A stretch of 64,000 bases of DNA. Source: Clostridia bacterium (GTDB taxonomy: Bacteria > Bacillota > Clostridia > Saccharofermentanales > Saccharofermentanaceae). A program made the position numbers and the translations under genes. Of this stretch, positions 56,492-59,453 are shown piece after piece. Location: NCBI GenBank assembly GCA_024403775.1, contig JAKSRE010000017.1:1-64000 (forward strand), given 5' to 3'. Each line of letters begins with the position of its first letter. The stretch's first letter is position 1. The notes under the pieces were generated by a model. That model was not told the DNA's origin, searched no databases, and saw only the letters and a list, made by a program, of their open reading frames with translations.

Positions 56492-56520
56492 TTGCAATAT
56501 ACCCCTCGGGGGTATATAAT
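56492..56520 (+). promoter_or_regulatory. Copper-responsive promoter with CsoR operator
   Basis: TTGCAA (56492-56497), 17-bp spacer, TATAAT (56515-56520). The spacer is TATACCCCTCGGGGGTATA (about 56498-56517), a near-perfect palindrome of the CsoR G-tract type. Repressor binding would block polymerase directly. Confidence 0.9.
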
Positions 56521-56574: not shown

Positions 56575-56907
56575 ATGGACGATAATCAGAATTCGGAATA
56601 TATGTGCCCTCATTGTTGTGAGAACTCAGGCAAACACAAAGATAGAACAGATAAAGAGTTTAAAGATCTCATGAATCGCCTCAAAAGAATTGAGGGGCAG
56701 GTCAGAGGGGTTGAAGGTATGCTTGAAGATGGAGCTTATTGTACTGATATCATTATCCAGGTTCAGGCTGTTACTTCTGCTCTCGATAGTTTTAGCAGAG
56801 TTCTTCTTGATAATCACATAAGAAGCTGTGTTGCCGATAATATTAGACAGGGTAATGATGAGATAATTGATGAACTGATTACTACAATTCGTAAGATGAC
56901 AAAGTAG
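56575..56907 (+). CDS. csoR: Copper-sensing repressor, CsoR family
   Basis: A 110-residue helical repressor. LKRIEGQVRGVEGML is the family core (about 36-50). The Cu(I) ligands Cys-His-Cys are visible: CTDII near 58, NHIRSC near 82-87. The N-terminus (CPHCCENSGKHK near residues 11-22) adds a Cys/His-rich extension not needed by the minimal fold. The gene starts 54 bases after the -10 and lies 14 bases before copA. It is expected to bind the palindrome in the promoter spacer and release it with Cu(I). Confidence 0.93.
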   Translation: MDDNQNSEYMCPHCCENSGKHKDRTDKEFKDLMNRLKRIEGQVRGVEGMLEDGAYCTDIIIQVQAVTSALDSFSRVLLDNHIRSCVADNIRQGNDEIIDELITTIRKMTK

Positions 56908-56921
56908 GGGCAGGGTAACTT

Positions 56922-59453
56922 ATGAAGACATTTAATGTAACTGGAATGAGTTGTGCTGCCTGCAGTGCAAGAATAGAGAAAGCGGTATCCAAAGTTGATG
57001 GCGTTACAGTTTGTTCTGTTAATTTACTTACAAATTCGATGAATGTTGAAGGTGATTTTAAAGTAGAAGATGTCATAAAGGCTGTAACGGATGCTGGTTA
57101 TGGTGCTTCTGTTAAGATCGATAAAAGCTCAGTTAATAAAAATTCTTCATCTTCTTCGGGTTTGACAGATGAAGATGAGTTTAAAGATACCGAGACTCCA
57201 AAGTTAGTTAAAAGACTTATCTGGTCACTTCTGTTTCTTATTCCACTAATGTATGAATCCATGGGCCATATGCTCTGGGGCTGGCCATTACCCAAGTTTT
57301 TACATAACAACCATATTGGAATGGGACTTTATGAATTAGTTTTAACTACTATCATCTGTATTATTAACCAGAAGTTTTTTATTAGTGGTTTTAAGGGACT
57401 AATAAAGAGAGCTCCTAATATGGATACACTTGTTGCTGTAGGAGCAAGTGCTGCTTATATTTTTAGTTTATATTCACTTTTTAAGACCAGCTATTTGATA
57501 ACGATTGATGGTATTGACAGTGCCACATCTTTAATGGATAGTTTGTATTTTGAATCAAGTGCTACGATTCTAACTCTGATAACTGTAGGTAAAACTCTTG
57601 AAGCCAGATCAAAGGGGAAGACAACAGATGCACTTAAGGGCTTGATCAAACTTAAACCAAAGACTGCAACTATTATTAAAGATGGTGTTGAGACAGAAGT
57701 ATCAGTAAAAGAAATAAGAATTGGTGACAAGTTTATCGTAAAACCAGGAAGCTCCATTCCAGTTGATGGTGTAATTATTGAAGGATTAACTTCAATAGAT
57801 GAATCAGCTTTAACAGGTGAGAGTATTCCAGTAGATAAGAGCATAAATGATGAAGTCTTTGAAGCAACAATTAATCAGGAAGGCTATGTAGTTTGTGAAG
57901 CAACAAGAATAGGTGAGGATACAGCTTTATCCAAGATAATAAAGATGGTAACTGATGCATCTTCAACAAAGGCTCCAATAGCTAAGATAGCAGATAAAGT
58001 ATCTGGTGTTTTTGTTCCAGTAGTATTAAGCCTGGCTCTTATTACATTAATTATCTGGCTTATTACAGGAAATGGCTTTGGCTTCTCACTTGAGCGAGCA
58101 ATATCTGTTCTTGTTATTTCATGTCCATGTGCATTAGGTCTGGCAACACCGGTAGCTATCATGGTTGGTAGTGGAGTTGGAGCAAGAAATGGAATACTTT
58201 TTAAAAATGCAGTAAGTCTTGAAGGAACTGGTAAGGTAAATACCGTTGTTCTTGATAAGACGGGAACAATAACAAAAGGTAAGCCAGAAGTTAAAGATAT
58301 CATTACTGTCGGAAATATTACTGATAGCGAACTATTAAGAATAGCCTATTCTGTAGAAAATAAAAGCGAACATCCTCTTGCAAAAGCCATTATAGACTAT
58401 GCATCTACTAATAAAATTACTCTTTCTGAAGTAAGTGATTTTAATGTGGAAATTGGTAATGGAATTACAGGTAAAATAGATGGCAAAGAGATTAAAGCAG
58501 GAAGCTTAGGGTTTATTTCAGAAATGGTAGCAATAGATCAGAATATAAAGATGAAAATCGATGAATTATCTGATCAGGGTAAGACTCCAGTTTTATTTAC
58601 AAGAGAGAATACCCTCATAGGAATTATTAGCATAGCTGATTCAATCAGAGAAGATAGTAAGGAAGCAATAAAGAGACTAAATGAACTCGAAATTGATGTT
58701 GTAATGCTGACTGGTGATAATAAAAGAACTGCTAATGCTATTGCAAAAGAAGCGGGAGTAACAACAGTCATATCAGACGTTCGTCCTGAGGGTAAGGCTA
58801 ATGCCATAAATGAACTTAAGCGTAATGGCAAAGTTATTATGGTAGGAGACGGAATTAATGATGCACCTGCGCTTATGAATGCTGATATAGGAATAGCAAT
58901 TGGTGCGGGCTCGGATATTGCAATTGATGCAGCAGATGTTGTTCTCATGAAGAACAGCCTCATAGACGTAGTAGAAGCAATTCGTATCAGCCGCAAAACA
59001 TTGATGAATATCTATCAGAATTTGTTCTGGGCATTCATCTATAATATTATTGGAATTCCACTTGCCATGGGCGTGTGGTATCCATTATTTGGATGGAAAT
59101 TAAATCCTATGTTTGGTGCTTTTGCAATGGGCTTATCCAGTTTTTGCGTTGTATCAAACAGCTTAAGACTTAATTTGTTCAAAAGACAGAGTGTTGATTT
59201 ACCAGAAGAGGTAAGACCTGCTGTTGCCAAAAATATACAAAAGGAGAATAGAACTATGGAAATTAAAGTAAAGGGAATGATGTGTGGTCACTGTGAGGCA
59301 CATGTAAAAAAAGCACTCGAGGCAGTTGATGGAATCACATGTGCTATTCCAAGCCACGAGACAGGCATCGTTAAAATTACATGCGACAAAGAAATCCCTT
59401 CAGATACTTTGAAGTCTGTTATCGAAGAAGCAGGTTATGAGTATATAGGTTAA
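56922..59453 (+). CDS. copA: Copper-exporting P1B-type ATPase with C-terminal CopZ-like domain
   Basis: An 843-residue membrane pump that exports Cu(I). N-terminal HMA domain (1-68; GMSCAACSAR). Eight membrane segments, of which the sixth carries SCPCALGLATP near residue 400. Actuator loop with TGES near 305, phosphorylation site DKTGTI near 446, and GDGINDAPA near 645. Residues 779-843 are a second HMA domain (GMMCGHCEAH) placed at the C-terminus, which is unusual. Directly before it lies AAAAGGAG and an in-frame ATG, so this part may also be made separately. It is co-transcribed with csoR. Confidence 0.95.
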   Translation: MKTFNVTGMSCAACSARIEKAVSKVDGVTVCSVNLLTNSMNVEGDFKVEDVIKAVTDAGYGASVKIDKSSVNKNSSSSSGLTDEDEFKDTETPKLVKRLIWSLLFLIPLMYESMGHMLWGWPLPKFLHNNHIGMGLYELVLTTIICIINQKFFISGFKGLIKRAPNMDTLVAVGASAAYIFSLYSLFKTSYLITIDGIDSATSLMDSLYFESSATILTLITVGKTLEARSKGKTTDALKGLIKLKPKTATIIKDGVETEVSVKEIRIGDKFIVKPGSSIPVDGVIIEGLTSIDESALTGESIPVDKSINDEVFEATINQEGYVVCEATRIGEDTALSKIIKMVTDASSTKAPIAKIADKVSGVFVPVVLSLALITLIIWLITGNGFGFSLERAISVLVISCPCALGLATPVAIMVGSGVGARNGILFKNAVSLEGTGKVNTVVLDKTGTITKGKPEVKDIITVGNITDSELLRIAYSVENKSEHPLAKAIIDYASTNKITLSEVSDFNVEIGNGITGKIDGKEIKAGSLGFISEMVAIDQNIKMKIDELSDQGKTPVLFTRENTLIGIISIADSIREDSKEAIKRLNELEIDVVMLTGDNKRTANAIAKEAGVTTVISDVRPEGKANAINELKRNGKVIMVGDGINDAPALMNADIGIAIGAGSDIAIDAADVVLMKNSLIDVVEAIRISRKTLMNIYQNLFWAFIYNIIGIPLAMGVWYPLFGWKLNPMFGAFAMGLSSFCVVSNSLRLNLFKRQSVDLPEEVRPAVAKNIQKENRTMEIKVKGMMCGHCEAHVKKALEAVDGITCAIPSHETGIVKITCDKEIPSDTLKSVIEEAGYEYIG
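59256..59453 (+). CDS. copZ: Candidate internal CopZ-like copper chaperone
   Basis: An in-frame ATG at 59256 inside copA is preceded by AAAAGGAGAA (about 59239-59248), a ribosome site as strong as those of real genes here, nine bases away. It would yield a 65-residue protein beginning MEIKVKGMMCGHCEAH, the size and motif of the free copper chaperone CopZ. Alternatively it is only a remnant of a former separate copZ gene fused by loss of the copA stop. Expression is inferred. Confidence 0.5.
   Translation: MEIKVKGMMCGHCEAHVKKALEAVDGITCAIPSHETGIVKITCDKEIPSDTLKSVIEEAGYEYIG

Follow-up and report, generated by a model that had tools for sequence, protein, structure and literature searches.

A conserved in-frame start predicts a copper chaperone nested within the copper pump gene copA of Clostridia

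Introduction

In a Clostridia bacterium (Saccharofermentanaceae; assembly GCA_024403775.1, contig JAKSRE010000017.1), the gene for a copper-exporting ATPase, copA, does not end after the last transmembrane helix but runs on into a small metal-binding domain. Does this tail serve only as part of the pump, or is it also made as a separate protein? The initial annotation pointed out that copA continues without a stop codon into a 65-residue CxxC HMA domain, and that a Shine-Dalgarno (SD) sequence and an in-frame ATG at gene-like spacing lie immediately before it. It proposed that one gene may give both the pump with a tethered chaperone and a free CopZ, an outcome similar to that of the E. coli copA frameshift but reached by a different route. 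We analyzed the first 64,000 nucleotides of the contig, here called the window, and compared the locus with hundreds of related genes. The layout described in the initial annotation is confirmed, and comparative evidence independent of this sequence supports its interpretation. The arrangement is also not a quirk of one gene but the usual architecture in the Clostridia and Treponemataceae sampled.

Results

The copA locus and its C-terminal domain

The features of the locus are listed in Table 1. The product of copA contains an N-terminal HMA domain, the P1B ATPase core and a C-terminal HMA domain. The CPC, DKTG, GDGxND and MxxSS motifs are present in the translation as SCPCALG, DKTGTI, GDGIND and MGLSS, identifying the protein together with the copper subfamily model as a Cu(I) P1B-1 ATPase, although Cu(I) transport was not assayed. 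The internal ATG is in frame, 778 codons after the copA start, and 9 nt separate it from the last G of AAAAGGAG. csoR precedes copA, and a perfect palindrome resembling CsoR boxes overlaps a strong promoter-like site upstream of csoR. This arrangement matches the usual layout of a copper-sensing CsoR operon. The genes after copA appear acetate kinase-like and phosphotransacetylase-like from their translations, which were not searched against databases. No Rfam match above threshold was found in the region. The copA of the window is 57-63% identical to Lachnospiraceae and Treponema genes, but its tail is mostly under 50% identical to copA tails of its own genus, suggesting horizontal exchange.

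Table 1. Features of the csoR-copA locus, in window coordinates
Coordinates	Strand	Feature	Evidence
56492..56520	+	sigma-70-like promoter TTGCAA-17-TATAAT of the csoR-copA operon	consensus scan, 10 of 12; not evidence of function on its own
56498..56516	.	palindromic CsoR-operator-like box TATACCCCTCGGGGGTATA overlapping the promoter	exact match; 0 expected by chance
56575..56907	+	csoR, metal-sensing repressor (110 aa)	PF02583, E 1.7e-30
56922..59453	+	copA, Cu(I)-exporting P1B-type ATPase with N- and C-terminal HMA domains (843 aa)	TIGR01511 597.8 bits, cut-off 397; PF00122, PF00702, PF00403 x2
56928..57101	+	N-terminal HMA domain (GMSCAAC)	PF00403 61.3 bits
59178..59255	+	divergent linker between last ATPase helix and C-terminal HMA; carries the internal SD	sequence; linker comparison
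59239..59246	+	internal Shine-Dalgarno AAAAGGAG	duplex energy -8.9 kcal/mol; conserved in 271 of 295 fused genes
59256..59258	+	internal start codon ATG of predicted nested copZ	in-frame ATG conserved, usually 8 codons before GMxC, 6 here
59256..59453	+	nested copZ-like cistron (65 aa, about 7 kDa, MEIKVKGMMCGHC...)	PF00403 residues 3-62, 45 bits, cut-off 24.8; best PDB sequence match CopZ 6ff2, E 9e-10
59262..59441	+	C-terminal HMA domain (GMMCGHC)	PF00403 43.8 bits

The product expected from the internal ATG is a single, complete HMA domain with a GMxCxxC motif, and its best sequence match among solved structures is the chaperone CopZ. It scores below the cut-offs of the curated CopZ models (NF033795, 49.2 bits against 91; NF047957, 48.6 against 85; NF033794, 35.2 against 95), and we therefore refer to it as CopZ-like. 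To test if the genome encodes another CopZ, we searched it for HMA domains. Only three matches were found in this 97%-complete assembly: the two in copA and a separate 72-residue protein with an LDCANC motif, which lies in a row with an ArsR-like gene and a second heavy-metal ATPase. The best models for the 72-residue protein are of the ZntA type, and it was rejected as CopZ. Thus, no other CopZ-like gene was found.

Strength of the internal start

We asked if the internal SD is stronger than expected by chance. SD strength was computed as the duplex energy with the 16S tail piece ACCUCCUUU over positions -20 to -4. Gene starts in the window have a median of -8.6 kcal/mol, and the start of copA itself scores -7.7. 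Of 395 internal in-frame ATGs in 39 long ORFs, a background drawn from the 64-kb window only, the ATG at 59256 is the only one at or below -8. The internal SD is the stronger of the two copA sites in 41 of 67 measurable relatives as well.

Conservation of the fusion and the internal start

The initial annotation had specified that a stop codon before 59256 in related strains would expose the fusion as a sequencing error. This is not what the relatives show: the in-frame fusion recurs in 76 loci of the genus and in most Clostridia sampled. A search of 85 genomes of the genus, which has at least 85 sampled species, found fused copA-HMA genes in most of them, and the linker DNA of 76 loci was read. 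All but three (73 of 76) have an in-frame ATG with an SD just before the HMA domain. The linker protein diverges, but the SD remains and moves between codon phases: AAG GAG (KE), AAA GGA GAT (KGD), ACG GAG GAT (TED), GAA AGG AAA (ERK) and ACA GGA GGA (TGG); KGE also occurs.

The arrangement extends beyond the genus. Eighty GTDB loci with organism names include Lachnospiraceae, Ruminococcus, Oscillospiraceae and rumen Treponema. In the first pooled set, 135 of 147 fused genes have the ATG, and 134 of these 135 have an SD energy at or below -5 kcal/mol, which other internal Met codons of the same genes reach in 18% of cases. In an evenly drawn sample of the class, 191 of 393 genomes match the fused-tail profile. 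Of 111 fused loci read from this sample, 106 have the internal start, two of them with GTG in place of ATG and the SD kept. In Treponemataceae, 39 of 41 fused loci have the ATG and SD. In five fused loci the motif is DMSC or EMSC. Taken together, 271 of 295 distinct fused genes from the genus, other Clostridia and Treponemataceae have ATG plus SD, three have GTG plus SD, and 21 have neither within the set limits; one of the 21 (L260) has an ATG with SD one codon beyond the limit. Windows of the same size elsewhere in these genes contain the combination in 6.8% of cases.

Most of the 21 fused genes without the start also lack an SD there, and the 12 fused genes without an ATG in the first set mostly lack a usable SD. 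Eight fused copA loci of the Ruminococcus flavefaciens type have lost both the nested ATG and the SD but keep the C-terminal HMA domain. We asked if loss of the start goes with gain of a separate CopZ; small HMA proteins occur both with and without the internal start, so the comparison does not favor either answer. Some relatives with the internal start also carry another small HMA protein, and there a free chaperone may not be needed from this gene.

Selection at the nucleotide level

To test if the SD is maintained beyond protein constraint, the seven codons upstream of the start were recoded with each gene's own synonymous codons. The mean SD energy is -9.1 kcal/mol as observed and -5.5 after recoding, and the strongest of 100 whole-set recodings is -5.9; this control assumes independent codons within a gene. 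Lys-Glu at the site is written AAGGAG in 140 of 159 cases but in 112 of 795 elsewhere in the same genes (Fisher p 4e-75; the sequences are related, so the p value overstates independence). On a FastTree tree of the ATPase core, the SD changes codon phase at least 22 times while being kept, and the start is gained or lost about 14 times among fused genes. These counts are approximate because the alignment is short. The ATG follows the SD core at 3-13 nt, mostly at 10 nt.

The site is also unstructured. The mean MFE of the region from -30 to +30 is -2.4 kcal/mol, compared with -13.5 at other Met codons of the same genes. Low GC explains most of this difference, as composition-matched shuffles differ by only +0.8 kcal/mol. 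Taken with the codon phase changes, the biased synonymous codon choice and the mostly joint loss of SD and start, the data show that the SD and start are under selection at the DNA level in hundreds of genes.

Comparison with separate copA and copZ genes

The initial annotation had also named relatives with separate copA and copZ as a comparison to make. Such relatives exist: 15 loci of the class sample have separate genes (among Clostridia loci L317-L332), and four Treponemataceae loci have separate neighboring genes. In two of the latter (L365 and L366), copA and copZ overlap by 4 nt out of frame, a possible intermediate between separate and nested genes. The separate copZ genes start 8 codons before GMxC, with SD energies of about -6 to -13 kcal/mol. 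The nested starts lie at -8 codons in 199 of 271 cases and at -6 in 34, including the window. The arrangements thus run from separate genes, through a 4-nt overlap, to in-frame nesting. The tree gives 11 changes between fused and separate genes, whose direction was not determined. Within the fused genes, the C-terminal motif is GMMCGHC in most, while the N-terminal domain carries GMSCAAC, which fits a chaperone-type domain plus a pump-type domain.

Discussion

Based on these observations, we suggest with high confidence that the last 66 codons of copA are a copZ-like cistron nested in the same reading frame, with its own ribosome-binding site and start codon inside the linker. In this model, two initiation sites lie on one mRNA. 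Ribosomes that start at 56922 would make the full pump, carrying a C-terminal chaperone-like HMA domain on a flexible tether, and ribosomes that bind AAAAGGAG in the unstructured, AT-rich linker would start at 59256 and make a free 65-residue CopZ-like protein. Both would be induced together by copper through CsoR. The free protein would carry Cu(I) in the cytosol to the pump, and the tethered copy would serve as an extra metal-binding or docking domain. The gene layout, the domains and the conservation of the start at the nucleotide level are established by the analysis; that initiation occurs, how much product is made and what each form does are inferred, and production of the 7-kDa protein has not been measured. 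SD energies are a proxy that predicts initiation without measuring it, SD-like sites inside genes can be silent or cause pausing, and no ribosome profiling, proteomics or mutant data entered this study. Because the internal SD is at least as strong as the start of copA in the window, free CopZ may be made in similar or greater amounts.

Could the site be fortuitous, with only the fused pump being made? The linkers are rich in Lys, Glu and Asn, Lys-Glu can be written AAGGAG (77 of 84 such sites in the first set are), the Met could simply belong to the HMA domain, and 21 fused genes do without a start. However, the SD is kept when the residues are KGD, TED, ERK or TGG, in other codon phases, and codon choice is strongly skewed to AAGGAG only here, making chance very unlikely. 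A programmed pause that helps the last membrane helices insert is equally improbable. The site lies about 26 codons after the last helix, and internal SDs have been proposed to pause ribosomes, but a pause needs no start codon, GTG replaces ATG in two genes with the SD kept, and the encoded product is an exact HMA domain. Nor is it likely that free CopZ comes from a separate transcript or from proteolysis of the linker, with the SD only helping. Differential transcripts are reported for E. coli copA (Drees et al., 2017, cited in PMC10187127), yet no promoter-like site lies on the plus strand within 500 nt upstream of 59256, and the strong SD and start would be unexplained by proteolysis.

A less remote alternative, though still unlikely, is that only the free CopZ matters: the stop codon of an ancestral copA was lost, and the fused tail is a harmless read-through product of two adjacent genes. 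The shared start geometry of separate copZ genes, some with 4-nt overlaps, makes stop loss an easy route. On the other hand, the frame stays open in most sampled genes although the linkers diverge in sequence and length and single changes in Lys/Glu codons would restore a stop. This is suggestive only, as the fused genes were found by their open frame and its retention is not an independent test. Together with the 21 genes that keep the fusion without the start, it suggests that the tethered form is probably useful too, which is not shown.

The closest comparison is the programmed frameshift of E. coli copA, which yields the pump CopA and the chaperone CopA(Z) from one gene (Meydan et al., 2017; Drees et al., 2017, cited in PMC10187127 and PMC7558416). 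There the free protein is the N-terminal HMA domain, made by a frameshift and an early stop. The locus described here is not of that type: the CopZ-like domain is C-terminal and in frame with copA, and no slippery site or alternative frame is needed. Separate copA-copZ operons, as in Bacillus subtilis and the loci above, have the same two protein modules, in the loci above in the same order and with the same copZ start geometry and SD, but copA ends in a stop and the pump carries no C-terminal chaperone domain. Archaeoglobus fulgidus CopA is a Cu-ATPase with an HMA domain after the last helix (Agarwal et al., 2010, cited in PMC7558416); a separate CopZ fused to an iron-sulfur domain exists there (PMC7558416), and an internal start was not looked for. 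In aspartokinase II (alpha/beta), CheA (long/short) and SctQ/SctQ-C, an in-frame SD and start inside a gene give a shorter C-terminal product, but to our knowledge none is a membrane transporter releasing its own metallochaperone. Literature searches for a CopA-CopZ fusion or internal start, limited to open-licence papers, found no earlier description. In-frame internal starts and a copA gene giving two proteins are each known; what differs here is the C-terminal position of the chaperone domain and the route to its release.

A broader possibility, which we put forward only tentatively, is that a large part of Clostridia and the Treponemataceae make CopA and its chaperone from one gene by a nested in-frame start, that both forms are selected, and that the ratio of tethered to free chaperone is set, perhaps copper-dependently, by competition between elongating pump ribosomes and internal initiation. 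This would be a second, independently evolved one-gene-two-proteins solution for copper export.

CopZ appears absent from many anaerobic gut and rumen genomes because it is hidden inside copA, and annotation pipelines list only the pump. The two public records with a fused gene that we examined, from Roseburia and Butyrivibrio plasmids, name a single ATPase product although both have the internal start. The 21 fused genes without the start and the families with separate genes form a natural experiment on what a tethered chaperone does compared with a free one. If the nested start is confirmed, the E. coli copA frameshift becomes one of two convergent ways to get pump and chaperone from one gene, which points to selection for making them together.
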